From Roseomonas gilardii subsp. gilardii (GTDB lineage Bacteria; Pseudomonadota; Alphaproteobacteria; Acetobacterales; Acetobacteraceae): 64,000 nt of DNA. How positions within the stretch are numbered: the stretch's first letter is position 1; each line of letters begins with the position of its first letter. The stretch is taken from assembly GCF_023078375.1 (NCBI RefSeq), contig NZ_CP095555.1, positions 359,564 to 423,563 of the forward strand. The letters run 5' to 3'. Of the stretch, positions 41,777 through 64,000 are shown in pieces. The position numbers and the translations under genes are program-made. The notes under the pieces are model-generated. The model had not been told where the DNA came from, searched no databases, and was given only the letters and a program-made list of their open reading frames with translations.

Positions 41777-43410
41777 TCACTCCGCCGGGCGCGTCGTGCT
41801 TTCCCAATAGGGCGGGCTGGAGGCGACGAGGGCCTTGAGATCCGCCGGGGCCTTCGCGCCCTGGACGGCGGGCCGCCCCAGCACGGCCGCCGTCGCGAAG
41901 GCGACCATGCGTTCGCCGGCCAGCCGCATGTTCTCCGGCGCCTGGGTGTTCAGCGGATGCGGGCCGCGGAAGACGAAAATCTCCTTCGGCTCCCGCGCGC
42001 GCCGATAGGCATCGAGCGAACCCTCCAGCCCCTCCACATAATCCCAGATGCCCTTCGCGATCAGCAGGCCGGGCCATTGGGCGATGCCGGCGAAGACCTC
42101 CGAGTCCGGGTAGTAGGTGGTGTTGCGCTCGATCCGCAGGGCGGCCTCGACCATGTCATGCCCCGCCATGCGATAGCCGAGGCCGCCCGAATTGGGGCCG
42201 TAGAGGATGGCGCCACGGATATTGCTCCAGCCCAGCGGCGGCTTGCAGGGCTGGTCGGGCTGGTCGCGGTCGCAGTCGGCCACGAAGTTGCGGTGCATGG
42301 CCCAGGCCGTGGCATAGGAGCCGCGCGAATAGCCACCCAGCACCACCGGGATCTCCCGCGCCTTCATCCCGGCCATGAGCCTGCCGCCGGCGGCGGGGCC
42401 GGACAGGATCTCGCCCTGTGGCGTCAGGATGCGCAGGCCCTTGCCGCTTTCCATCTGCTCCAGCTCGCGTACCATGTCGCGGCCCTGCTCGGCGGTGTTG
42501 AAGCCGTTGACGCCGCCCGAGATGCCGTTGCCGCGCCGGTCCGTGATCAGGACATCGAATCCCGCCTCGTTCAGCGCCCAGACAAAGCCACGCCAGTGCC
42601 GCATGCCCGGCTGCTCGCCCTCCCCCTCGCCGAGGCATCGACGACATAGCGGCCCTCCGCATCCCGGGCCACGCCGGTCGCCCGGGGGTCGTCGGTGGCG
42701 GTCAGTTCGCTGCCACCGCCATTGTTCATGATGACCAGAGCCCGGCGCCGCGCGCCCGCCCCATCCTCGATCCCTTGCCCCTCCAGATACCAGCCGCGCA
42801 GCCGGATGGGGTCCCGCAGCCCGAGATGCAGGCGCTCGTAGCTGTCGCGCGGCACCGTGAACTCGACCGTGTGGGTGCGCGCCTCGGCGCCGGCGATCGG
42901 CTCGGCGAAAGGCTCCCGCGCGAAGAAGACCGGGCGGCGGATGGCGCGCAGGTCCACCTCGCCATCCTGGTCGATGCGGCCCACGGGATCGACGCTGCCG
43001 GTGCGGCGCGGTTCGAAACTGGTGAAGCCCTCGGCAGCCTTGCGCGCCGGCCCGGCGCAGGCGGGATTCTCGCGGCACTGCGCCCAGCGCTGCCGGATGC
43101 GCGCATCGGTGAATTCCCGTGCGTAGAAATCGTTCGGGCCATACCCCGGCGGCACGAGCTGGTTCGTGGGCATGAAGGGCAGGCACTGCTCGCGCCCCCC
43201 AGCGGCGATCCGGTAGCCGGGCAGGTCGGCATTGCGGTCGAAATTCACATGCGTGCTGCAATCGGACGGCACCGTGCCCTGGTTCACCGGCAATGGGTTG
43301 GCCGGCGGCGGATTCGCCGGCTGCGCCACCTGCGCCAAGCCGGGCTGCACAATGCCCAGTGCCAGCGCGAGGCCAGCCATGCCGAGGGTCGGTCGCACCA
43401 CATCCTCCAT
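41777..43410 (-). CDS. Secreted large alpha/beta hydrolase-like protein, frame broken near 42615-42640
   Basis: About 544 residues when repaired. Signal peptide MEDVVRPTLGMAGLALALG to about GLAQ, a Pro-rich linker, then a 230-residue N-terminal region containing NGGGSELTATDDPRATGVARD. The C-terminal hydrolase part has FDVLITDRRGNGISGGVNGFN and nucleophile elbow GGYSRGSYATA (GxSxG), with FRGPHPLN late. The N-terminal frame (from 43410) and C-terminal frame (to 41777) join at VVDASARG/GEQPGMRHW; one missing C on the plus strand around 42629-42631 repairs it. Resembles oligomer or polyester hydrolases in scale, but the substrate is unknown. Divergent from the ThDP enzyme. Confidence 0.75.
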
Positions 43411-51109: not shown

Positions 51110-51993
51110 CCGCCGCGCCCCCGCCCCGGATCGACGCGCACCAGCATTTCTGGGCCCTGTCCCGGGGCGACTATGGCTGGCTGACGCCGGCGATGGCGGC
51201 GATCCACCGGGATTTCGGCCCCGGGGATCTGGCCCCCCTGCTCCGCGAGGCCGGGATCACCGGCAGCATCGCCGTCCAGGCCGCGCCCACGGAGGCCGAG
51301 ACCCGATACCTGCTCGGCATCGCGGCGGCGGAATCCGGTGTCCTCGGCGTGGTCGGCTGGAGCGACCTGGAAGCCCCCGACGCCCCGGACAATCTCCGGC
51401 GCCTGGCGGCGGACCCGCTGCTGGTCGGGTTGCGGCCGATGCTCCAGGACCTCCCCGACGACGACTGGCTGCTGCGCCCGGCGCTGCTTCCGGCCCTGGA
51501 GGCGATGCAGGCCCTGGGGCTGGTCTTCGATGCCCTGGTGAAGCCCCGCCACCTGCCCCATCTGCTGCGCTTCGCCGAGGCCCATCCCGACCTCCCGATC
51601 GTCATCGACCATCTGGCCAAGCCCGCCATCGCGGAAGGGCCGGGCTCCCGGTCCTGGCAAGGCTGGGCGGATGGCATGGCGGCGCTGGCGCGGCTGCCGC
51701 ATGTCCATTGCAAACTCTCGGGCCTGGCGACCGAGGCCGCGCCCGGCTGGACCGCCGGGGATCTGCGTCCCTACCTGGCCCTCGCACTGGGCCATTTCGG
51801 GCCGGACCGCATGATCTGGGGCAGCGACTGGCCCGTGCTGCGCATGGCGGGAACCTATCCCGGCTGGTGCGCGGCCACCGCTTCGCTCCTCGCCCCTCTG
51901 CCGCCAGGGGCACAGGCCGGCATCCTCGGCGGCAATGCGGCGCGGATCTATCTCGGCAAGCGGGGGCGCCAAGGAGGGCAAGAGCCATGCTGA
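51106..51993 (+). CDS. Amidohydrolase_2 family lactonase (L-fuconolactonase type)
   Basis: 295 residues, TIM-barrel amidohydrolase. [18 protein letters not shown] is the signature opening of the COG3618 fucono- and rhamnono-lactonases; [11 protein letters not shown] and [10 protein letters not shown] supply further metal-site or catalytic residues. It hydrolyses the 1,5- or 1,4-lactone made by the aldose dehydrogenase to the aldonate. ATGA overlap with the reductase gene; the following FucU ATG lies within its last codons. Confidence 0.9.
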
Positions 51994-52432
51994 AGACCAT
52001 CCCTCCCCTCCTGACGCCGGACCTGCTCTGGGTCCTCGCCTCGATGGGCCATGGCGACGATCTGGTCCTGGTGGATGCCAACCATCCCGCCACCGCCATC
52101 GCCCGCTCCACGGCCTCGGGGCGCCTCGTCAGCCTTCCGGGCCTGCGCATGGCCGATGTCGCGGCGGCGATCCTGACCCTGCTGCCCATCGACGACTTCG
52201 AGCCCGGCCCGGTCCGGCGCATGGAGGTGGTAGGCGCCCCCACCACGATCCCCCCATCCAGCGCGAGGTCCAGGCGGTGCTGGACCGGGCGGTGCCGGGA
52301 CTGGCCATGCAGGGGCTGGAGCGCTTCGCCTTCTACGAGGCCGCCCGCAGGGGCTTCGCCGTGGTCCAGGTCGGCGATGCCCGCCCCTATGGCTGCTTCC
52401 TGTTGCGCAAGGGCGTCATCGCCGGACACTGA
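51987..52432 (+). CDS. fucU: L-fucose mutarotase (RbsD/FucU family), frame broken at 52250-52255
   Basis: About 148 residues when repaired. It begins [34 protein letters not shown], whose GHGD and DANHP parts are the FucU active-site signature, and closes with [24 protein letters not shown] and KKGV-like RKGVIAGH. One C missing from the C6 run at 52250-52255 breaks the frame at TTIPP; restored it reads [20 protein letters not shown] onward to TGA 52430-52432. FucU interconverts alpha and beta L-fucose, feeding the dehydrogenase. Its presence is the best evidence that the sugar is fucose-like. Confidence 0.87.
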
Positions 52433-54001: not shown

Positions 54002-54792
54002 TTGAAGGCCATCGTCTTGTGTGCTGGCCAGGGGCGCCGTCTCCTGCCGTTTACGGAGCGGACCCCGAAATGTCTCCTTCCCGTGGGCGGCAAACCCATT
54101 CTCGGCTGGCAGCTTCTGGGCCTGTCCGAGGCCGGGATCGAGGAAGTCACGCTCGTCACGGGTTTCAGGGCCGAGACGATCGAGGCGGCACTGCCCGGCA
54201 TCACGCCCAAGGGCCTGACGGTCCGGACTGTCTTCAATCCCTTCTTCGGCGTCGCCGAGAATATCGGCAGTTGCTTCCTGGTCCGTGACCTGCTGCGAGC
54301 CGGCGACACGGTGCTGCTGAACGGCGACACCCTGTTCGAACCTGCGGTACTGCGTCACCTGCTGTCGGCCCCCGCCGCGCCCATCACCGTCACGATCGAC
54401 CGCAAATCCCATTACGATGCCGATGACATGAAGGTCTCGGCAGATGGGGCGAGCCTGCGCGCCATCGGCAAGACCCTGACTCCGGACGAGACGAACGGTG
54501 AATCCATCGGCATGCTGCGCTTCCAGGGCACGGGCGGCGCGCTCTTCGCCGATGGGCTGGAGGCCGTGCTGCGTCAGCCGGAGGGGCTGCGCCGCTGGTA
54601 CCTCTCCGTCATCCACGCCATCGCCCAGATGGGTCATCAGAGGAGCCATCAGGGAGGCCATCAGGGGGGCAGGTCCGTGTGACCTCCATCCAGGGCCTGA
54701 GCTGGGGCGAGGTGGACTACCCGGACGATCTCGCCGAGGCGGAGGCGCTTGTCCGCTCCTGGGCCATGCCCGCCCCGGCCCTGGCCGGCTGA
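54002..54792 (+). CDS. NTP-sugar/phosphoalcohol nucleotidyltransferase, frame broken at 54664-54669
   Basis: About 263 residues when repaired. MKAIVLCAGQGRRLLPFTER followed by TPKCLLPVGGKPIL is the nucleotidyltransferase signature; LLNGDTLFEP holds the metal-binding Asp. HYDADDMKVSADG and ETNGESIGMLRF recall LicC-like cytidylyltransferases that activate phosphocholine or other phospho-alcohols. A 12-bp tandem repeat (CATCAG at 54635, 54647, 54659) precedes a G6 run; the frame as read stops at 54682. One G more gives VTSIQGLSWGEVDYPDDLAEAE and a stop at 54790-54792. TTG start with a weak ribosome site. It may supply an activated headgroup for the lipid locus. Confidence 0.8.
54635..54669 (+). 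repeat. 12-bp tandem repeat plus G6 run inside the nucleotidyltransferase gene
   Basis: Three imperfect 12-bp units (54632-54643, 54644-54655, 54656-54667) each contain CATCAG at an exact 12-bp period, encoding His-Gln-Gly/Arg repeats. They run straight into GGGGGG at 54664-54669, where the reading frame breaks. The inserted His-Gln units are not part of the nucleotidyltransferase fold as I know it. Confidence 0.7.
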
Positions 54793-54805
54793 TGCCGAGG
54801 TGACG

Positions 54806-56548
54806 ATGCTCCCGACGCGCCATTCGCTGCCCCGGCGGCTGGGCTCCTTCGCCACCCTGCCCGACGCACTGGACTATGCCGCCGGCGGGGAAACGGGGCT
54901 GGGCTTCCATGACGGCCGCGGCGAACTGACCCAGGCCCTGCCCTATCGCAGGCTGCGCGAAACATCGCGGCAACTGGCCAGGCGGCTGACCGGCGCGGGG
55001 CTGGAACGCGGGAACCGCGTGGCCATCATCGCCGAGACGCGGCCCGACGTGGTGGAAGCCTTCATGGCCTGCCAGTATGCCGGCCTCGTGCCGGTGCTGC
55101 TGCCCCTCCCGGTCGCCTTCGGCGGGCGCCAGACCTATATCGAGCATATCTCCCGGCTGACCCTGGCGGCACGCGCCTCGGCACTCTTCGTGCCAGAGGC
55201 CCTCCAGCCCTGGCTGGCGCCCTTCGCCGCCGAGGCCGGGCTGACGGTCTTCGGAACCGTGGCGGGACTGGCATCGGCCCCGGAAAGCGCCGCGGAACCG
55301 GTCCCGCTGGGCGAGGACGAGATCGCCTATCTCCAGTTCTCCTCGGGCAGCACGCGCTTCCCCATGGGCGTCGCCGTCACGCAGCGCGCCCTGATGGAGA
55401 ACATCCGCGCCATCCTGCGGCACGGGCTCCAGGTGGGTCCGGAGGACCGCGCGGTGTCCTGGCTGCCGCTCTACCACGACATGGGCCTCGTGGGCTTCCT
55501 GCTGGCGCCCCTCGCCGGGCAGGTGACGGTGGACTACCTCTCGCCGCAGGAATTCGCGCGGCGGCCACAGCTCTGGCTGCGGCTGATCTCCAGCAACCGC
55601 GCCACCCTCTCCTACAGCCCCAGCTTCGGCTACGAGCTGTGCACCCGGCGGGGGCGGCCGGACCCGGCCAAGGGGCCGGCCCTCGACCTCTCCTCCTGGC
55701 GCGCCGCGGGCATCGGGGGCGACATGATCCGGCCGCATGTGCTGGCGCGCTTCGCCGAGACCTTCGAGCCGGACGGCTTCCGCGCCGGGGCCTTCGTGCC
55801 CAGCTACGGCATGGCCGAGGCGACCCTGGCCATCAGCTTCGCGCCACTGGGCAAGGGGCTGGCGACGGATATGGTGGACCTCGACCGGCTGGAGCGTGAG
55901 GGCACCGCCATGCCCCCAGGGGATGGGTCGCGGCTTCGGGAATTCGCGCTGTGCGGCCCGCCGGTCCCGGGCACCGAGCTGGAGATCCGCGATGCCACCG
56001 GCGCCCCGCTGCCCGAGCGGCAGGTGGGGCGCGTCCTGGTGCGCGGGCCGGGGCTGATGCAGGGCTATGACGAGAGGCCGGAGGAAAGCACGGCCGTGCT
56101 CTCAGCGGATGGCTGGCTCGACACGGGCGACCTCGGCTACCGCCTGGGCGGGCAGATCGTGATCACCGGCCGCGCCAAGGACCTGATCATCGTCAACGGC
56201 CGCAACGTCTGGCCACAGGACCTGGAATGGTCCGTGGAGCAGTCGATCGCGACAGCCCGCAGCGGCGATGCCGCCGCCTTCTCGGTGGAGGAGGACGGGA
56301 CGGAGCAGGTGGTGATGCTGATCGAGGCACGCGGCGCGCCGGACAATGGAGAGCGCGAGCGGCTGGCCACCGAGGCCGCCGGCACGCTGCGCGCACGCCA
56401 TGGGGTCGAGGCGCGGATCGTGCTGGTGCCGCCGGGCAGCCTGCCGCGCACCTCCTCGGGCAAGCTCAGCCGTACCCGGGCGCGCAGCCTCTATCTGGCC
56501 GGTCACTTCACGGCGGGGGCCAGCGCGCTCGTGGCCCTGCCGGAATGA
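54806..56548 (+). CDS. Fatty acyl-AMP ligase / acyl-ACP synthetase (FAAL-like ANL enzyme)
   Basis: 580 residues from ATG 54806 (GTG 54800 possible). FAAL-type features are YLQFSSGSTRFPMGVAVTQ as the P-loop, WLPLYHDMGLVGFLLAPL, PSYGMAEATLAISFAPLG, and WLDTGDLGYRLGGQIVITGRAKDLIIVNGRNVWPQDLE, with C-terminal lysine in RTSSGKLSRTRARS. LYHDMGLVG and SYGMAEATL are typical of fatty acyl-AMP ligases that load an acyl carrier protein rather than CoA. The dedicated ACP at 62688 is the obvious acceptor. Its end overlaps the epimerase-like gene (ATGA). Confidence 0.87.
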   Translation: MLPTRHSLPRRLGSFATLPDALDYAAGGETGLGFHDGRGELTQALPYRRLRETSRQLARRLTGAGLERGNRVAIIAETRPDVVEAFMACQYAGLVPVLLPLPVAFGGRQTYIEHISRLTLAARASALFVPEALQPWLAPFAAEAGLTVFGTVAGLASAPESAAEPVPLGEDEIAYLQFSSGSTRFPMGVAVTQRALMENIRAILRHGLQVGPEDRAVSWLPLYHDMGLVGFLLAPLAGQVTVDYLSPQEFARRPQLWLRLISSNRATLSYSPSFGYELCTRRGRPDPAKGPALDLSSWRAAGIGGDMIRPHVLARFAETFEPDGFRAGAFVPSYGMAEATLAISFAPLGKGLATDMVDLDRLEREGTAMPPGDGSRLREFALCGPPVPGTELEIRDATGAPLPERQVGRVLVRGPGLMQGYDERPEESTAVLSADGWLDTGDLGYRLGGQIVITGRAKDLIIVNGRNVWPQDLEWSVEQSIATARSGDAAAFSVEEDGTEQVVMLIEARGAPDNGERERLATEAAGTLRARHGVEARIVLVPPGSLPRTSSGKLSRTRARSLYLAGHFTAGASALVALPE

Positions 56549-57513
56549 CCGGCGCCCCGCTGGTCGCCGTCACGGGCGGGACCGGCTTCCTCGGGCGCCA
56601 TGTGGTCGCGGCGCTGGCGGCACAGGGCTGGCGGGTGCGGATGCTGGTCCGGGGCGCACCCGCGCCCGAAGGGGTTCCGGTGGAAGCTGTGCGGGGCGAC
56701 CTCGCCGATGCGGTGGCCCTGTGCCAACTGGTGGCCGGCGCCCAGGCGGTGGTGCATCTGGCCGGGCTGACCAAGGCACGGCGGCCCTCCGAATTCCTGG
56801 CCGTGAACCGGGATGGCAGCGCCCGGCTGGCGGAGGCGGTGGCCCAGGCGGCGCCGGAGGCCCGCTGCGTGCTGGTCTCCTCCCTGGCGGCGCGGGAGCC
56901 ACGGCTTTCCCCCTATGCCGGCAGCAAGCGGGCGGGCGAGCAGGCCGCCGTGGCGGCGCTGGGGCCGGCGGGACGCTGGGTGGTGCTGCGGCCCTCGGTG
57001 ATCTACGGACCTGGGGACCGGGAAGGGCTGCTGCTGCGCCGCCTGGCGGCCTCCGCCATCGTGCCGGTGCCGCGCGCGCCGGAGCCGCGGATCGCCATGG
57101 TGCATGCGCGGGACGTGGCGGGCGCCATCGCGGCCCTCTGCCGTTCCGGCCCCCAGGCAGGTCTGCTGGGCGGCACCTTCGAGATCACGGATGCGCGGCG
57201 CGAGGGCTATGGCTGGCGCGAGCTGCTGCACCGCCTGGCGCGGGAGCTGCGGCACCGGCCGCGCTTCCTGGAGGTGCCGGACGCGGCCATGCTGGCGGCG
57301 GGCGCGGCGGCGGATGGCTGGGCCCGGCTGACCGGGCGAAGCGGCCTCTTCGGCCTCGGCAAGGCGCGGGAGATCCTGCACCGGGACTGGGGCTCCGACG
57401 CGGAACGGCAATTGCCGGAGACGGTCTGGACGCCGGGCATCGGCTTCGAGGAAGGGCTGCGGGACACGCTGGCCTGGTGGGCCAGCCTCGGCCTCGCCCC
57501 GGCGCCGGGCTGA
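56545..57513 (+). CDS. NAD-dependent epimerase/dehydratase family reductase (ceramide reductase-like)
   Basis: 322 residues, extended SDR. VAVTGGTGFLGRHVVAALAAQ is the cofactor motif, HLAGLTKARRPSEFLAVNRDG follows, and YAGSKRAGEQ carries the YxxxK pair; VLRPSVIYGPGDREG and the flexible C-terminal part complete it. In alphaproteobacterial sphingolipid loci an SDR of this type (CerR in Caulobacter) reduces the 3-keto group during ceramide assembly. That role is inferred from the adjacent acyl ligase, carrier protein and SPT-like enzyme. Confidence 0.82.
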   Translation: MTGAPLVAVTGGTGFLGRHVVAALAAQGWRVRMLVRGAPAPEGVPVEAVRGDLADAVALCQLVAGAQAVVHLAGLTKARRPSEFLAVNRDGSARLAEAVAQAAPEARCVLVSSLAAREPRLSPYAGSKRAGEQAAVAALGPAGRWVVLRPSVIYGPGDREGLLLRRLAASAIVPVPRAPEPRIAMVHARDVAGAIAALCRSGPQAGLLGGTFEITDARREGYGWRELLHRLARELRHRPRFLEVPDAAMLAAGAAADGWARLTGRSGLFGLGKAREILHRDWGSDAERQLPETVWTPGIGFEEGLRDTLAWWASLGLAPAPG

Positions 57514-57561
57514 ACCGGGGATCAACCATGTCCGGAAGCACGGATCGCCCAATACCCTGCC

Positions 57562-57977
57562 CTATGGCGTCTCCCCGCCCATGCGCGTCGCCTCGTAGCG
57601 ATAGCCGCAGCCGCCACCCGTCCGCGCGGCGCCAATGGTGGGAATCTCCTCCGCGGTCAGCCGGTCGCCGGCGATCCGCCCCGCGGCCCGGCGCTCCGAT
57701 CCATCCCGGTCCAGCGCGATCTCGCCATGCGGCGTCACGGTGCCGGTCATGATGGGGCGCTGGACGGCGGAATGGCGGTGGCGCGAGGTCCGCAGCTCCA
57801 CCAGCCCATCCCGGATGCGGAACCAGACGGTGCGGGGCTCCTTCCGGCAGCCCGGCGCCGTGCCGATCGAAATCTGCTGGCCCTGGTACAGGCCGTCGAA
57901 GCGTGCCAATGCCGGCGCCGCCCCCTCCCCCTTCCCTCCCCGGCACACCCCGCCAGCAGAGGGACCATCAGCAGCAT
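57562..57977 (-). CDS. Small lipoprotein-like hypothetical, frame broken near 57921-57941
   Basis: About 138 residues when repaired. A short leader MLLMVPLLAGCAG is a lipobox (LAGC) in one frame. The body, LARFDGLYQGQQISIGTAPGC, FRIRDGLVELRTSRHRHSAVQ and TGTVTPHGEIALDRDG, with paired cysteines late (GGGCGYRYE), is one frame away. A single base missing in the G/C homopolymer-rich tract at 57921-57941 joins them. The fold looks like a small beta-rich periplasmic domain; function unknown. Antiparallel to the surrounding lipid genes, nested between the reductase and the glycosyltransferase. Confidence 0.6.
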
Positions 57978-58010
57978 GAGCGTGGCCAGCCCTGGGCCAC
58001 GGAGGAACGG

Positions 58011-58961
58011 ATGACCCAATCCGCCACGGCTTCCGCCCATTTCGCCGATCGCCCGGTCGTCTTCATCCACACCAACGCCAAGCAGCGGCTGGGGGCCCTG
58101 GTTTCGGCGCATTCCTTCCGGCGCAACGCGCGGCAGCCGGAGGGATTCGAGGTGCGGCTGCTGGAAGCGGAGCATTCGGCGCCGCTCCGTGCCGCCGAGG
58201 GGCGGAGCTTCCTCCGCGCCGGCCACAGCCGCATTTGGCGTATGGATGACCTGCAATCCTTCACCCCTCTCCGTTTCGCCGTGCCCGACGCCATGGGGCA
58301 CCAGGGCCTGGCGCTGGTGGTGGACCCCGATGTCTTCGCGGTGGGCGATGTGGGCGAGCTCTTCGCCCGCGACCGCGAGGGCAAGGCCATATGGTGCCGG
58401 GCGCGGCCCGGGCACAATGGCGCGGCGGAATACCTCGCCACCAGCGTGATGCTGCTGGATTGCGCGCGCCTGCCGCACTGGCGCTTCGGACCGATGCTGG
58501 AGGACCTCCTCGCGAAGCGGCTGGACTATGTGGAGCTGATCGAGCTGCGGCGGGAGAAGCGCGAGACCATCGGGCTGCTGGAATCCGTCTGGAACGATTT
58601 CGACCGGATGGAGGCGGATACACGCCTCCTGCACACGACCAAGCGGCGGACGCAGCCCTGGAAGACCGGGCTGAAGGTGGATTTCACCGTGCGCGAACGC
58701 GGCTTCGGGCCGATCCCGGCGGCGGTGGTGCGCCCCCTCCTGCGGCTCTGGACCTCCCAGGCCCGCTACAAGCCGCATCCGGACAAGCGGCAGGAGGCTT
58801 TCTTCTTCGCCATGCTGGCGGAATGCCTGGACGAAGGGTCGGTCACCCGCGCGGAGGTCGAGCACGGGATCAGGGAGAAGCATATCCGCCCGGATGCCCT
58901 GGCGCTCGCGGATCGCTGCCGTGGCCAGTTCCCCCGGCCCCTGTCGGCAGCAGCGGCCTGA
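58011..58961 (+). CDS. Putative GT8-like glycosyltransferase
   Basis: 316 residues, start ATG 58011 with ggagg 6 bp upstream. VVFIHTNAKQRLGALVSAHS opens a nucleotide-diphospho-sugar transferase-like fold. ALVVDPDVFAVGDVGELF parallels the DxD metal motif of family 8 enzymes (DADTLV in others), and YLATSVMLLDCARLPHW parallels their SGVMLID segment. HTTKRRTQPWKTG near residue 210 parallels the closing His-Lys-Pro-Trp motif. The similarity is by pattern only, so the family is tentative. Its tail overlaps the ELM1-like gene on the other strand by 92 bp. Confidence 0.65.
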   Translation: MTQSATASAHFADRPVVFIHTNAKQRLGALVSAHSFRRNARQPEGFEVRLLEAEHSAPLRAAEGRSFLRAGHSRIWRMDDLQSFTPLRFAVPDAMGHQGLALVVDPDVFAVGDVGELFARDREGKAIWCRARPGHNGAAEYLATSVMLLDCARLPHWRFGPMLEDLLAKRLDYVELIELRREKRETIGLLESVWNDFDRMEADTRLLHTTKRRTQPWKTGLKVDFTVRERGFGPIPAAVVRPLLRLWTSQARYKPHPDKRQEAFFFAMLAECLDEGSVTRAEVEHGIREKHIRPDALALADRCRGQFPRPLSAAAA

Positions 58962-60048
58962 TGCGGTCCACCGCCGCCACCGCCACCTGCGGCGGCAGGG
59001 ACCTTCCTGCCGTCAGTTCGTGATGCTCCAGCCCCTGCCAGAAGAACCACAGATCGCGCGGCCAGCCGGCCCAGCCGCCCCGCACCAGCCGGCCCCAGGC
59101 CCGGCCCGGAAGGCGCAGCCAGGGCGGCGCCGTCCGCCCGGCATCCGCCAGCCGCAGGGCACGCATGGCGCGGAGCCAGACACCGCCGGGCCAGCTCGCC
59201 CGGACGGGGATCAGGGTGACGGGCTTCCCGGTCGCCACGGCTTCCGAGACCATGGCGACGCTGTCGGCGGTGACGGCGATCCCGTCGGCCAGGGCGAGCA
59301 GCCCGGCATAGGGGTTCCGCTCGCCCGTGCCTTCCAGCAGGGCCGCGGGCACCGGCGCCCCGGCGAGGAGGCCGCGCAAGCGCCCGGTCAGGGCAGCGGG
59401 CGTGCGGCGGCTGGCGATGGCCAGGACGCTGCCACCCTCCTCCTCCGCCCGGGCGAGCAGCACGCGGCAGGCCCGCTCCACCTCCCCCGGGTCCAGCCGC
59501 CAGGGCCAGGACGGTCCCCCGAGGAGAAGCGCGCGGCGGGGCGCCGGGAAAGGCGCCAGGGCTCCGCGCCAGGCCACCGCGGCCTCGGCCAGCCGGGCGG
59601 CGGTCTGGCGAGTCAGGGAAAGCGGCTGTTCCAGGACATGGGGGCCGGCCGGCACGCCATATTGCGGTGTCGTCACCACCAGGTCGAAGCGGCCGGGATG
59701 GCAGCGTGGCCGCCCGATCTGGACGATCCGGCTATGCCCCGCCGAGCGGGCGCGGACCCAGCGCGCGGCCGGCACGCTGCGGCGCCCGACGCCGATCACC
59801 AGTTCCGGCCAGGGCGGCCCGAGCCTCGCGCGGGAGGCCGCATCGAGGCTGAGCAGTCCGATATCCCCCAGGCGGGTGGGCCAGAGGCGCAGCAGGTTGT
59901 GGCGCAGGGGGATCGCCTCCACCGTGCCGCCACAGGCATCGGCCACGGCCTCGGCCAGCGCCAGAACCTGGTTGTTGTCGCCGGTGCGGGGGCCAAGCAG
60001 CGCCCAGATGCGCGGCCCCCTATCCATCCTGCTGTCCGTCTCGCCCAT
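58870..60048 (-). CDS. ELM1/GtrOC1-family protein (mitochondrial fission ELM1-like)
   Basis: 392 residues from ATG 60048 with GGAAAG upstream. IWALLGPRTGDNNQVLALAEA, ELVIGVGRRSVPAARWV, VVTTPQYGVPAGPHVLE and VTADSVAMVSEAVATGKPVTLIP match the bacterial ELM1 family, which has a GT-B-like glycosyltransferase fold. Bacterial members lie in lipid or envelope gene clusters; function is not proven. Transcribed against the flanking genes. The last about 25 residues overlap the GT8-like gene end. Confidence 0.85.
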   Translation of the reverse strand: MGETDSRMDRGPRIWALLGPRTGDNNQVLALAEAVADACGGTVEAIPLRHNLLRLWPTRLGDIGLLSLDAASRARLGPPWPELVIGVGRRSVPAARWVRARSAGHSRIVQIGRPRCHPGRFDLVVTTPQYGVPAGPHVLEQPLSLTRQTAARLAEAAVAWRGALAPFPAPRRALLLGGPSWPWRLDPGEVERACRVLLARAEEEGGSVLAIASRRTPAALTGRLRGLLAGAPVPAALLEGTGERNPYAGLLALADGIAVTADSVAMVSEAVATGKPVTLIPVRASWPGGVWLRAMRALRLADAGRTAPPWLRLPGRAWGRLVRGGWAGWPRDLWFFWQGLEHHELTAGRSLPPQVAVAAVDRIRPLLPTGAGGTGHGSDPRAPGHPGGYASP

Positions 60049-60106
60049 GCGCTCTTTCCGGGGGGCGCGGAGGATGGGCGCGGGCGGGGATGCCGGCAAG
60101 GCCACG

Positions 60107-60148
60107 CCATGCGCATAGCCCCATGCGCATAGCCCCATGCGCATAGCC
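60107..60148 (+). repeat. Exact triple tandem 14-bp repeat spanning the GT4 start codon
   Basis: CCATGCGCATAGCC occurs three times back to back (60107-60120, 60121-60134, 60135-60148). Each copy carries ATG CGC ATA, and 14 is not a multiple of three, so the three ATGs (60109, 60123, 60137) are in three different frames. The third opens the glycosyltransferase gene. The first two each open an eight-codon mini-ORF (ending TAG in the following copy). Confidence 0.93.
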
Positions 60149-61279
60149 TATGTCGCGGGCACAGCCCTGCCTTCCCGCGTCGCGAGCGCGGTGAACGTGA
60201 TGAGCATGTGCCGCGCCTTCGCCGCCGCCGGGCACGAGGTGACGCTCTATGCGCGCGGGCGGCAGGCGGATGCGGAGGCGGTCTTCGGGGCCTTCGGCAT
60301 GCCCCGCTGCTTCGAGCTGGTGCTGCGGGCGCCGCCGCATTTGCCGCTGGCGAAGAACCTGCTCTACCCCGCGCTGGCCGCGCGGGAGATGGCCGCGCGG
60401 CCAGCGCCGGACCTGCTCTATGGGCGCCATGCCTATGCGCTGGCGGCGGCGGTCACGCGCAGCCGGGCACCCTTCGTCTACGAGGCCCATGCGCTGCCGC
60501 TGCGGCGGGCCCGGCGCATGGCGGAATCCTGGCTGTTCCAGCACCGGCGGATGGCGCTGATGGTCGCCATCTCCCAGAGCCTCGTGGAAGACTACGCCGC
60601 CCGGATGCCGGCCCTGGGCGGGCGGCCGGTGATGGTGGCGCATGACGGCGCCGACCCTGTGGCGGAGCCCGGCCCGCCGCCCGCGCCCTGGCCGGGCCGG
60701 CCGGGCGCCCCGCAACTGGGCTATGTCGGGCACCTCTATCCCGGCAAGGGGATGGAGATGGTGGCCGCCCTCGCCGCGGCCCTGCCGGAATGCGACCTGC
60801 ACGTGGTCGGCGGCACGGAGCGTGACCTGGCCACCTGGCGGCAGCGTTGCGCGGGGCGGGCAAACCTGCACCTGCACGGGCATGTGCCACATGCGCGGGT
60901 CCCGGCCCATCTGGCGCGCTTCGACCTGCTGCTGGCACCGCCCTCGCCCAGCGTGGCCTCCGCGGCGGGGCGGGAAATCGGGCGCTGGATGTCGCCGCTC
61001 AAGCTCTTCGAATACATGGCGGCGGGAAAGCCGATCCTCGCCTCCGACATCCCGGCACTGCGCGAGATCCTGGTGGATGGCCGGACGGCGCTCCTGCTCC
61101 CGCCCGGAGATGCGGCGGCCTGGGCGGCGGCGGCGCGGGCACTGCTGGGCGATCCGGCGCGGGCGGCCGCCCTGGCGGCGGAGGCGAAGGCGGTCCTGCT
61201 GCGCACCTATACCTGGGAGGCCCGGGCGGCCCGCATCCTGGCCCGGGTCGCGGCCCATCCGCCGGAGGGCCGGCCATGA
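60137..61279 (+). CDS. Glycosyltransferase family 4 (GT-B)
   Basis: 380 residues from the third ATG of the 14-bp tandem repeat. N-terminal Rossmann half MRIAYVAGTALPSRVASAVNV resembles acceptor-binding domains. The donor half has LGYVGHLYPGKGMEMV and SPLKLFEYMAAGKPILASDIPALRE, the GT4 E-x7-E type region. It would transfer a sugar to a lipid or glycan on the cytoplasmic face. ATGA overlap with the flippase gene downstream supports export of the product. Upstream translation signals are poor and replaced by the repeat. Confidence 0.88.
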   Translation: MRIAYVAGTALPSRVASAVNVMSMCRAFAAAGHEVTLYARGRQADAEAVFGAFGMPRCFELVLRAPPHLPLAKNLLYPALAAREMAARPAPDLLYGRHAYALAAAVTRSRAPFVYEAHALPLRRARRMAESWLFQHRRMALMVAISQSLVEDYAARMPALGGRPVMVAHDGADPVAEPGPPPAPWPGRPGAPQLGYVGHLYPGKGMEMVAALAAALPECDLHVVGGTERDLATWRQRCAGRANLHLHGHVPHARVPAHLARFDLLLAPPSPSVASAAGREIGRWMSPLKLFEYMAAGKPILASDIPALREILVDGRTALLLPPGDAAAWAAAARALLGDPARAAALAAEAKAVLLRTYTWEARAARILARVAAHPPEGRP

Positions 61280-62625
61280 CCCCGGCGGCGAGCACGGCCA
61301 CCGCCGACGCGCTGTTCCGCCGCATCCTGCGGAATGCCGGGCTGGTCCTGGGGGGCAAGGCGGCGACGGCGCTGCTGAACCTGGCCGCCTTCGGCCTGGC
61401 CATGCGGAGCCTCGGCGCGGCGGAAATGGGCGTGCTGGTGCTGGTGCACGGCTTCGCCCAGACGGCCTCCTCGCTCGTGAAGTTCCAGTCCTGGCAGGCG
61501 GTGCTGCGCTACGGCGCCGGCAGCCTGGGGCCGGAACGGCGGCCGGCCTTCCAGGCCCTGCTGCGCTTCACCTTCGGGCTGGATATCGGCTCCGGGGTCG
61601 TGGGCAGCCTCGCCTGCGCCCTGGCGGCCTGGTTCCTGGGCCCTTCCTTCGGCTGGCCGCCGGAGGTGGTGCCGCTGGCGGCCCTCTACGCCACCAGCAC
61701 CGCCTTCCTGGTGACCGCCACGCCGATCGGGCTGCTGCGCCTCTTCGACCGCTTCGACCTTCTGGCCCGGCGGGATGCCATGGGGGCCGGGTTCCGCCTG
61801 GCGGGCGCGGCGCTGGCGGCGGCCTGCGGCGCGGGGCTGCCGGGCTTCCTCGCGGCCTGGTACCTCGCGACGGTGCTGGGCGGGATCGTGCTGATGGCGG
61901 CGGCCTGGCGGGAAGTGTCGCGCCGCGGCCTGCTGCGGCGGGAGGCAGGCGCCCCCCGCCTGGGCGCGGCGGAGGCGCATCCCGGCATCTGGGGCTTCGC
62001 CTGGTCCACGAACCTGATGACCACGCTCTCCCTCGGCTCGACCCATCTGGCGACGCTCTGCGTGGGGTGGATGCTGGGCCCCACGGAAGCGGCGCTCTTC
62101 TCCCTGGCGCGGCAGATCGGGGAGGCCGCCCTCAAGCCGAGCCGCTTCCTCACACCCGCCCTCTATCCGGAACTGGCCCGCCTGGCGGCGGCGCGGGACC
62201 GGGCCGCGCTGCGCCGGCTGCTGCGCCGGGGCCTCGCCCTCTCGACCCTCGTGGCCCTGCTGTTCCTGCTGGTCCTGGCCGTGCTGGGGGAATGGCTGCT
62301 TCGCCTCGTGGGCGGGGCGGAGGCGGGCGGCGCCTACCAAGTCATGCTGCTCCTGGCGGCGGCGGCCTCCATCAGCTTCGCCGGTTTCGCGCTGGAACCC
62401 CTGCTCGTCTCGATGGAGCGGCACGGCCTGGCGCTGCGGCTGCGGGCCATCGCCACGGCGGTCTACGTGCCCCTGGCCCTGGCCGGGCTGGCATGGCTCG
62501 GGCTGCCGGGCGCGGGGGTGGCCTCCATCCTGTCGGCGCTGCTGCTGCTGGCGGGGCAGGCCATGCCTGCCATGCAATGGCTCTCCACCCCCGCCCGCTC
62601 CACCGGCAAGGGAAACTTGCATTAA
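61276..62625 (+). CDS. Polysaccharide/lipid flippase (MOP superfamily, Wzx-like)
   Basis: 449 residues with about 12-14 hydrophobic helices, from AGLVLGGKAATALLNLAAFG to the C-terminal LSALLLLAGQAMPAM. FGLAMRSLGAAEMGVLVLVHG and ATLCVGWMLGPTEAALFSLARQ resemble the MATE/MOP polysaccharide transporter family. Beside a glycosyltransferase and lipid genes, it probably flips a lipid-linked glycan or glycolipid to the periplasm. A 62-bp gap with caaggaagac precedes the ACP gene. Confidence 0.85.
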   Translation: MTPAASTATADALFRRILRNAGLVLGGKAATALLNLAAFGLAMRSLGAAEMGVLVLVHGFAQTASSLVKFQSWQAVLRYGAGSLGPERRPAFQALLRFTFGLDIGSGVVGSLACALAAWFLGPSFGWPPEVVPLAALYATSTAFLVTATPIGLLRLFDRFDLLARRDAMGAGFRLAGAALAAACGAGLPGFLAAWYLATVLGGIVLMAAAWREVSRRGLLRREAGAPRLGAAEAHPGIWGFAWSTNLMTTLSLGSTHLATLCVGWMLGPTEAALFSLARQIGEAALKPSRFLTPALYPELARLAAARDRAALRRLLRRGLALSTLVALLFLLVLAVLGEWLLRLVGGAEAGGAYQVMLLLAAAASISFAGFALEPLLVSMERHGLALRLRAIATAVYVPLALAGLAWLGLPGAGVASILSALLLLAGQAMPAMQWLSTPARSTGKGNLH

Positions 62626-62687
62626 ACTTCATGAAGGGTTTAGTCGGGCGCGGCCGGGGGCTGTGGCTGGAAATCAAGGAAGACAAC

Positions 62688-62939
62688 ATGCTGGATGAAC
62701 AGGCCGCCCTACGGGAAATCACCGCAGCCCTGGAAGAAACCGGAAAGCTGGCCGGCCCTGTCGGCATGGACACGAACATCCTCAAGGACCTGAATTTCGA
62801 CTCCGTCGGGGCGGTCGATTTCATCATGGTGCTGGAGACCCGCCTGAACATCATCATCCCGATGGACCGGATGACGGAGATCGAGACCATCGGCGACCTT
62901 GTCCGGGTCGTGACCAGCGATCCCAGTCTGGCGTCCTGA
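62688..62939 (+). CDS. Dedicated acyl carrier protein
   Basis: 83 residues with the four-helix ACP pattern. The phosphopantetheine serine is Ser39 in LNFDSVGAVDFIMVLE (DS motif). The sequence is acidic overall. It is too diverged and too far from fab genes to be the housekeeping AcpP. Stop (62937-62939) and the next ATG (62942) are two bases apart, so it is translated with the SPT-like enzyme; in Caulobacter and relatives such an ACP feeds acyl chains to serine palmitoyltransferase. Confidence 0.9.
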   Translation: MLDEQAALREITAALEETGKLAGPVGMDTNILKDLNFDSVGAVDFIMVLETRLNIIIPMDRMTEIETIGDLVRVVTSDPSLAS

Positions 62940-62941
62940 CC

Positions 62942-64000
62942 ATGCTCTCCAGGTTCCGTGCCTTGCACGAGGAACACGCGGCCGTGGCCGCGGCCGGGCG
63001 CAGCCCCTTCGGCGTCGCCTTCGACGCCGTACTCTCCGCCACCGAGGCCATGCTGGACGGGCGGCGCATCCTGCTGCTCGGGACCAACAACTATCTCGGC
63101 CTGACACTCGATCCCGACGGCATCGAGGCCGCCGTGACCGCGACGCGGGAGCAGGGGACCGGCACCACGGGGTCGCGCATCGCCAATGGCACCTACGGGG
63201 GCCATGCGGCGCTGGAAACGCGCCTCGCCGCCTTCCTGAAGCGCCGCTCCGCCATGGTCTTCACCACAGGCTACCAGGCCAATCTCGGCGCGCTCTCCAC
63301 GCTGGCCGGGCGGGGCGACCACCTGCTGCTCGACGCGGACAGCCATGCCAGCCTCTATGACGGGGCGCGGCTGGGCCATGCCCAGGTGACCCGCTTCCGC
63401 CACAACGACCCCGACGACCTGCGCCGCCGCCTCCGGCTGCTCTCCTCCCAGCCCGGGGAAAAGCTGATCGTGGTCGAGGGCATCTACAGCATGCTGGGCG
63501 ACGTCGCGCCGCTGCGGGAGATCGTGGAGGTCAAGCGCGAGGCCGGGGCCTGGCTGCTGGTGGACGAGGCGCATTCGCTCGGCGTGCTGGGCCGGAACGG
63601 GCGGGGGCTGGCGGAGGCCGCGGGCGTGGAGCCGGAGGTCGATTTCGTCGTCGGCACCTTCAGCAAGAGCCTGGGCGCGATCGGCGGCTTCCTGGCCTCG
63701 GACCATGACGGCTTCGACGCGCTGCGCCTCGCGGCGCGGTCCTACATGTTCACCGCCTCCCTGCCGCCTTCCGTCACCGCCTCGGTGACCCGGGCGATCG
63801 AGGCCGTCGAGGCACGGCCCGAGCTGCGCGAGGCGCTGCGGCGGAACGGCCGGCACCTGCATGCCGGGCTGGTGGCGGCGGGCCTCGCGGTGGGGGCCAT
63901 GCCGAGCCCGATCGTCTCCCTCCTCATGCCGGACCGGGAAACCGCGGTCGTCTTCTGGAACCGGCTGCTCGCGGAAGGGGTCTACACCAACCTCGCCCTC
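62942..64000 (+). CDS. spt: Serine palmitoyltransferase-like PLP enzyme (alpha-oxoamine synthase), partial
   Basis: 353 residues visible; the right edge cuts off the C-terminus (family length about 400). The alpha-oxoamine synthase pattern is LLGTNNYLGLTLDPDG, GTGTTGSRIANGTYGGHAALE, VFTTGYQANLGALSTLAG, DHLLLDADSHASLYDGARL, VDEAHSLGVLG, and the PLP lysine at residue 242 in GTFSKSLGAIGGF. The ANGTYGGHAALE and DADSHASLYDG segments favour serine palmitoyltransferase over KBL, ALAS or BioF. It condenses serine with an acyl thioester to start sphingoid base synthesis. Coupled to the ACP gene two bases upstream. Confidence 0.88.
   Translation, partial: MLSRFRALHEEHAAVAAAGRSPFGVAFDAVLSATEAMLDGRRILLLGTNNYLGLTLDPDGIEAAVTATREQGTGTTGSRIANGTYGGHAALETRLAAFLKRRSAMVFTTGYQANLGALSTLAGRGDHLLLDADSHASLYDGARLGHAQVTRFRHNDPDDLRRRLRLLSSQPGEKLIVVEGIYSMLGDVAPLREIVEVKREAGAWLLVDEAHSLGVLGRNGRGLAEAAGVEPEVDFVVGTFSKSLGAIGGFLASDHDGFDALRLAARSYMFTASLPPSVTASVTRAIEAVEARPELREALRRNGRHLHAGLVAAGLAVGAMPSPIVSLLMPDRETAVVFWNRLLAEGVYTNLAL

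Follow-up and report, generated by a model that had tools for sequence, protein, structure and literature searches.

A predicted phosphosphingolipid cluster of Roseomonas gilardii with an unusual block of putative glycosyltransferase genes

Introduction

Among the closest described systems is the sphingolipid cluster of Caulobacter, the available part of whose account assigns five of 17 genes to dihydroceramide synthesis, six to CPG2 and four to transport, with two thought to be unrelated; the transport genes include those for LptC2, LptF2, LptG2 and a potential flippase (PMC11324152). In this system CpgD, with the active-site residues R16, K26 and D112, forms CDP-glycerate from CTP and phosphoglycerate, while CpgB is a ceramide kinase (PMC12275187, in part). 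Loci with AcpR and AasR in E. coli BL21, Gluconobacter and others are covered by a third account, likewise seen in part (PMC9386255). Here we describe a related cluster from Roseomonas gilardii subsp. gilardii that begins in a stretch of 64,000 nucleotides (hereafter the window; GCF_023078375.1, NZ_CP095555.1, positions 359,564 to 423,563). The genome comprises two contigs totalling 4.62 Mb, and the window is the final 64 kb of the smaller, C2 (423,563 bp); coordinates are those of the window unless prefixed with C2. The cluster comprises 22 genes over about 22 kb (54002-64000 and, across the contig junction, C2:1-12019), and we consider it probable (about 0.7) that it is plasmid-borne, makes a phosphosphingolipid, adds sugar to it and mediates export of the product to the outer membrane. 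Support at the sequence level consists of gene content and order, homology, conservation, the predicted fold of a GT8-like protein and a strong association with genomes bearing the serine palmitoyltransferase (SPT) gene spt; from these we infer all the biochemical steps, the identity and site of the sugar, and export.

A complete predicted ceramide core

All five members of the ceramide core (spt, acpR, aasR, cerR and cerS) are present by family and homology criteria, and we strongly favor the prediction that the cluster encodes ceramide synthesis. The pyridoxal-phosphate-dependent enzyme encoded at 62942..64000 on the forward strand (codons 1-353 of 401, with the remainder at C2:1-144 followed by a stop) passes the SPT equivalog model NF047599 with 575.4 bits against a cut-off of 500. 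Its nearest solved structures are all SPTs (3e-113), with the best Kbl at 4e-58, and in a phylogenetic tree 35 SPT rows split from four others with a support of 100/99. These four are E. coli Kbl, E. coli BioF and two chromosomal matches of the same genome; since the Kbl/BioF-type branches are long (4-5), only the two-group split is used. Residues H135, D208, H211 and K242, to which we presume catalytic roles, are invariant in alignment A3. The alternative that this is a Kbl/BioF-type α-oxoamine synthase, and that the product of the locus is not a sphingolipid, could draw on the BioF, Kbl and ALAS models, which also match the enzyme at lower scores. It is rejected by the model scores, the solved structures and the tree, and the linkage of the gene to those for AcpR, AasR, CerR and CerS further argues against it, making it exceedingly improbable.

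The dedicated acyl carrier protein AcpR (62688..62939, forward strand; 83 residues, with the start placed via the R. mucosa homolog) matches PF00550 with 35.7 bits, is 95% identical to R. mucosa AcpR over 83 residues and is encoded immediately 5' of spt with a gap of 2 nucleotides. The AasR-like fatty acyl-AMP/ACP ligase predicted to load it (54806..56548, forward strand; NF006624, 803 bits, cut-off 600) is 45% identical to the ligase of the E. coli B-type locus and 49% to that of Diaphorobacter, and the nearest solved structure is the fatty acyl-adenylate ligase 3pbk. The CerR-like NAD-dependent reductase (56545..57513, forward strand; PF01370, 85 bits) is 34-47% identical to its counterparts in three other sphingolipid loci, with 34% to the E. 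coli B-type homolog. Beyond the junction lies the predicted ceramide synthase CerS of the GNAT/YghO type (C2:10152-11243), with a PF00583 match of 31.6 bits and 48% identity to YghO over 364 columns. The first-pass annotation of the window had proposed the SPT-like enzyme, the dedicated acyl carrier protein two bases ahead of it, the ACP-loading ligase and the reductase, and had looked to the right for the rest of spt and a GNAT-type ceramide synthase; all of these were recovered, and the phylogeny that it had called for sets the enzyme apart from Kbl and BioF.

The rest of spt is found at the opposite end of the same contig. The window ends with the contig inside the gene, and the start of C2 supplies the remaining codons in frame together with the stop, giving a protein of 401 residues; the gene is uncut, and the cluster order the same, in one further genome (G102) and in R. 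mucosa HV3. Hence, the simplest reading of C2 is a circular extrachromosomal replicon that was linearised within spt.

Predicted headgroup and export genes

The cluster opens with a LicC-like, CpgD-like nucleotidyltransferase (54002..54682, forward strand; PF12804/PF00483), predicted to be a CTP:phosphoglycerate cytidylyltransferase. It is 89% identical to the R. mucosa protein and 58% and 49%, respectively, to its counterparts in the Diaphorobacter and Pseudomonas clusters, and its residues R13, K23 and D109 reproduce the spacing of the active-site residues of CpgD. Thus, the family and the active-site spacing fit, yet in this assembly the gene goes out of frame near codon 214. Across the junction, CpgB belongs to the DAGK family (PF00781, 39 bits), with ceramide as its predicted substrate, and the CDP-alcohol transferase CpgA (PF01066, 45 bits) is 45-55% identical to proteins of two other clusters. 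CpgC represents a conserved family whose members in other clusters (35-58% identity) are encoded beside CpgB or in its vicinity; it is likened to CC_1161 by description only. A motif resemblance had raised the candidate of a Tam41-like cytidylyltransferase for CpgC; neither Pfam searches to an E-value of 10 nor a PDB profile search supported it.

With regard to export, the Wzx/MOP-like flippase (61276..62625, forward strand; PF13440, 33.6 bits) is 59% identical to the R. haemaphysalidis protein and 33% to the flippase of the E. coli B-type sphingolipid locus, and relatives of it occur in both the E. coli B-type and the Rahnella sphingolipid loci. The C2 segment also encodes LptF2 and LptG2, the latter in two frames; this is a second LptF/LptG pair, as PF03739 is matched on C2 as well as on the chromosomal contig C1. 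A small predicted lipoprotein, frame-split near its N-terminus (57562..57977, reverse strand), is 40% identical to the product of the gene 5' of Wzx in R. haemaphysalidis; its R. mucosa homolog has 141 residues, and we take the start of the latter to be lipobox-like.

By these comparisons the locus is a predicted phosphosphingolipid cluster of the Caulobacter type. Its available descriptions (PMC11324152, PMC12275187) show that CC_1152-CC_1168 of C. crescentus shares aasR, cerR, acpR, spt and cerS, along with the ceramide kinase, the CpgC-, CpgA-, CpgD- and CofC-like proteins, a phosphoesterase, LptF2/LptG2 and a flippase. The present cluster differs in lying on a 424-kb replicon, in its additional GT8-like, ELM1, GT4 and GT39-like genes, and in its linked FA_hydroxylase-family, DUF2141 and HIT genes. 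Because the cluster is of the Caulobacter type, the LicC-like gene and the flippase are standard parts of it. By analogy, there is good reason to predict phosphorylation of the ceramide and a phosphoglycerate headgroup, and the Wzx and second Lpt components would mediate export, a role that is inferred in Caulobacter as well.

Beyond the junction the segment C2:1-12019 encodes GT39-like, CpgC, CpgB, CpgA, metallophosphoesterase, DUF2141, HIT, LptF2, LptG2, FA_hydroxylase-family, CerS and CofC/MobA-like proteins. The names HIT and GT39 are taken from the R. mucosa HV3 record: a 124-residue part of the HIT gene product gave no match in a Pfam scan, and the GT39-like protein has only a PMT_2 match below the Pfam threshold.

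The glycosyltransferase block

The truly unusual part of the cluster is the GT8-like/ELM1/GT4 block together with the GT39-like gene, for which the available parts of the Caulobacter and E. coli accounts offer no counterpart (PMC11324152, PMC12275187, PMC9386255). The first-pass annotation had counted the LicC-like nucleotidyltransferase, the GT8-like and GT4 glycosyltransferases, the ELM1-family protein and the flippase alike as a non-standard setting; this holds for the GT8-like, ELM1 and GT4 genes, while neither CpgD nor the Wzx-like flippase is out of the ordinary in known bacterial sphingolipid loci. Its overall reading, of a locus that makes, decorates and exports a sphingolipid, fits the full cluster as far as function can be read from genes, with phosphoglycerate as the known headgroup route and the sugars as an addition.

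The GT8-like protein (58011..58961, forward strand) belongs to an unnamed family recorded as "hypothetical" in databases. Its structure, predicted with AlphaFold2 from a 56-row alignment (a single sequence gave a pLDDT of 39), is a GT-A fold of the GT8 type, similar to LgtC, with a DxD motif; D105-P-D107 is invariant among the 56 aligned sequences. The window protein has no PF01501 match up to an E-value of 0.1, and 24 of the 56 family members match this model weakly (best 6e-5). With the GT8 enzymes LgtC, GlyE and glycogenin it shares the predicted fold and the DxD motif but only 9-18% identity. Rather than GT8 members, the GT8-like proteins form a family of their own, most of whose occurrences are in genomes with SPT. 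The 3' end of the GT8-like gene overlaps that of the reverse-strand gene for the ELM1-family putative glycosyltransferase (58870..60027; PF06258, 195 bits), which is 37-40% identical to the ELM1 proteins of the Pseudomonas fusion described below and of Diaphorobacter and has no PDB match to an E-value of 1. Next comes the GT4 glycosyltransferase (60137..61279, forward strand; PF13692/PF00534/PF13439). Confidence in glycosylation by the GT8-like, ELM1 and GT4 proteins is moderate; any proposal as to which sugar is added, in what order and with what part for the GT39-like protein would be weak.

A pathway can nevertheless be sketched in which AasR would charge AcpR with a fatty acid, SPT would condense the AcpR-bound fatty acid with serine, and CerS and CerR would finish the dihydroceramide, a chain of which the hydroxylase may hydroxylate. 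CpgB would then phosphorylate the ceramide and CpgC activate or extend the phosphate, while CpgD would form the CDP-glycerate used by CpgA, following the CPG2 route of Caulobacter. The GT8-like, ELM1 and GT4 proteins would glycosylate the phosphoceramide headgroup on the cytoplasmic face, before export by Wzx and Lpt: Wzx would flip the lipid, the GT39-like protein may attach another sugar on the periplasmic side, and LptF2/LptG2 would carry the lipid outward.

Related clusters

Clusters with the same gene order and 81-96% protein identity are found on R. mucosa plasmids, such as that of strain HV3 (NZ_CP025058), where the annotation shows CpgD, the lipoprotein and LptG2 whole and lists the genes singly rather than as a sphingolipid cluster. 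Ten R. mucosa-type plasmid records (nine from R. mucosa and one from a Roseomonas sp.) carry an spt with 92% identity to that of the window. More distantly, plasmid pDCB2 of Diaphorobacter sp. JS3051 shares SPT, AcpR, AasR, CerR, CerS, the CpgA-D-like and CofC-like proteins, HIT, the phosphoesterase, LptF/G, GT8-like and ELM1. To these it adds a P450, a short NRPS-annotated protein, a PPTase, a second CDP-alcohol transferase and an ABC transporter; Wzx, GT4 and GT39 were sought in this cluster without a match. Plasmid pPNP1 of Pseudomonas sp. JS425 shares the SPT core (SPT, AcpR, AasR and CerR), the CpgA-D-like proteins and LptF/G, and encodes a single fused protein of 780 residues, one half of which is a diverged GT8-like sequence (32% identity over 146 columns; E 3e-11) and the other ELM1 (37%). 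The E. coli B-type locus (yghO-aasR-cerR-acpR-spt; PN43 record; PMC9386255, in part) shares the five-gene ceramide core, LptF/G and the Wzx-like flippase; CpgA-D, GT8-like and ELM1 were sought in the PN43 record without a match.

Phyletic distribution and association with spt

Within the genus, eight of 15 genomes match at the level of SPT (409-459 bits, against at most 233 for the next matches), and the gene order is the same in all eight, GT8-like, ELM1 and GT4 included, with the GT39-like gene in seven and the hydroxylase in six. In family samples SPT was detected in 36 of 120 genomes (E 1e-90) and GT8-like in five of 299, all five with SPT. A cleaner test came from a sample of 385 alphaproteobacterial genomes, which yielded SPT in 49 and GT8-like in 13 genomes from seven families (one of the 13 matches being a contig-edge fragment): SPT is present in 13/13 genomes with GT8-like as against 36/372 of the others (Fisher p 5e-13, or 4e-12 without the genome of the window; kinship is ignored, and the genomes are not independent). 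In the phylum sample both GT8-like genomes (2/299) also have SPT. A taxonomic study of 2020, in its available part, took sphingolipids within Alphaproteobacteria to be apparently confined to Sphingomonadales (PMC7179689); this is contradicted at the gene level by SPT in 49 of the 385 class genomes, including members of the present family.

Several observations weigh against the proposed glycosylated phosphosphingolipid. The phosphosphingolipid clusters on the R. haemaphysalidis and R. marmotae plasmids retain Wzx but have no GT8-like, ELM1 or GT4 gene, nor a GT39-like gene or hydroxylase. Among 50 genomes reached via the GT8-like gene, seven are without a detected SPT, mostly metagenome assemblies in which gaps are possible. 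A core sphingolipid gene occurs within the fetched stretch at 26 of 79 GT8-like loci, many of them on short contigs, and at 20 of 73 outside six Roseomonas, Pararoseomonas and Siccirubricoccus loci; hence, the GT8-like gene is often unlinked elsewhere. The ELM1 family, found in 108 of 137 class genomes, is common without SPT, so only its pairing with GT8-like is informative; ELM1 lies near GT8-like in 41 of the 79 loci. Moreover, the genome searches score few candidates per genome, making absences soft, and some may be misses. Of the headgroup genes, CpgC has no Pfam match (to E 10) and no match in the PDB profile search, and the Caulobacter CC-number assignments rest on published descriptions rather than on Caulobacter sequences. 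Finally, frame splits affect three of the 22 cluster genes in this assembly, namely those for CpgD, the lipoprotein and LptG2.

Some of these points would fit an alternative in which the ceramide and phosphosphingolipid genes are real, while the GT8-like, ELM1, GT4, Wzx and GT39 genes are mere neighbors serving lipooligosaccharide or exopolysaccharide. GT4 and Wzx are broad glycan families, two Roseomonas plasmids keep the rest of the cluster without the GT8-like/ELM1/GT4 block, and 7/50 genomes with GT8-like have no detected SPT. LgtC, the best fold match of the GT8-like protein, acts on lipooligosaccharide. Further, the chromosome carries LpxC and the other LptF/LptG pair; therefore, lipid A synthesis is expected alongside. 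Against this stand the presence of SPT in every GT8-like genome of the three samples, the recurrence of GT8-like and ELM1 in SPT/Cpg clusters on plasmids from one beta- and one gammaproteobacterium, and the occurrence of Wzx in sphingolipid loci of Rahnella and of the E. coli B type. On this evidence, we regard the alternative as unlikely and favor glycosylation of the sphingolipid itself.

The frame splits raise the separate alternative that the cluster is decaying in this strain, so that at most ceramide or CPG would be made. When 84 kb was compared with R. mucosa HV3 proteins, a split between frames was seen in five of the 63 genes that aligned: the three in the cluster and two of 41 outside it, at 41780-43401 (reverse strand) and 51987-52429 (forward strand), without a clear difference in rate (p 0.33), a pattern that fits indels of sequencing or assembly. 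In CpgD the frame is lost after about codon 214 at an array of three 12-nucleotide units with an indel (54635-54670). The other 19 cluster genes each align with their HV3 counterparts in one frame, covering 97-100% of the length at 81-96% identity; ten more HV3 proteins had no match of at least 55% identity in this region. The splits are most simply attributed to sequencing or assembly error, and decay is not favored over it and appears unlikely.

The GT8-like loci and the ELM1 family show some further features. A sulfotransferase-like family occurs in 32 of the 79 loci (e.g., L083, L108 and L131 of the set L069-L147), one member matching PF00685 with an E-value of 4e-23, and it is possible that sulfated glycosphingolipids are made elsewhere, at such loci. 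A family without a Pfam match, presumably an oxygenase from its appearance, is found in 21 of the 79. ELM1 alone as a marker of sphingolipid loci was rejected on account of its wide distribution. A shorter ELM1 subtype (profile match ending at about 255-268, 140-230 bits), delimited by a post hoc criterion, is present in nine of 137 genomes, eight of them with SPT.

Replicons and mobility

The replicon carrying the cluster is not fixed, since in one genome (G130) it lies on a contig of 5.47 Mb, presumably the chromosome, rather than on a 424-kb replicon as here. This suggests that the cluster has moved between replicons within the genus. Beyond it, pDCB2 is typed as a conjugative IncP plasmid and has mercury genes on the same stretch as its near-complete sphingolipid cluster, while pPNP1 is typed as IncP and non-mobilizable, with insertion sequence elements and a class 1 integron around its cluster, which is likewise near-complete. 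All 12 Roseomonas plasmids found with SPT were typed as non-mobilizable, so that for Roseomonas mobility is a suggestion drawn from the distribution of the cluster. At E 1e-55, a plasmid collection yielded 24 records with SPT-like genes, among them those of E. coli, Klebsiella, Rahnella, Sphingomonas and Priestia; two of the three E. coli records are chromosome-sized. A search of viral contigs for SPT relatives found none.

Functional implications

These patterns lead us to a broader proposal, to which we give even odds: that GT8-like and ELM1 form a dedicated bacterial pair of sphingolipid glycosyltransferases, yielding from phosphoglycerate-ceramide a glycosylated, and in some bacteria probably sulfated, lipopolysaccharide-like surface lipid, and spread through plasmid-borne synthesis-and-export clusters, one version of which resides in the skin commensal R. 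mucosa. If true, this would be the first biochemical role for part of the ELM1 family and for the GT8-like family now annotated as hypothetical; the link between the two offers a testable function for an unannotated enzyme family. According to a review available in part, the benefit of R. mucosa in atopic dermatitis may have been due in part to its sphingolipids (PMC10456496). Since the cluster is plasmid-borne here and seven of 15 genomes of the genus lack it, this question could be tested across natural strains. Among the papers covered, there was none naming bacterial genes for sphingolipids of Roseomonas or Acetobacteraceae, which does not imply absence from print, and none on point for ELM1 with bacterial sphingolipids or for horizontally moved SPT clusters; in the available parts of two reviews with both "Roseomonas" and "serine palmitoyltransferase", the latter is the host enzyme.

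Flanking genes and a tandem array

On the 5' side of CpgD lies an ABC transporter set, identified from the R. mucosa HV3 record, and past the CofC-like gene at the other end is one that we take to be CitE-like; both look unrelated to the cluster. Within the glycosyltransferase block, a perfect tandem array of three 14-nucleotide units (CCATGCGCATAGCC; 60107-60148) overlaps both the start codon of GT4 and the interval between this gene and the divergent ELM1 gene, and a change in its copy number could alter the start of GT4.

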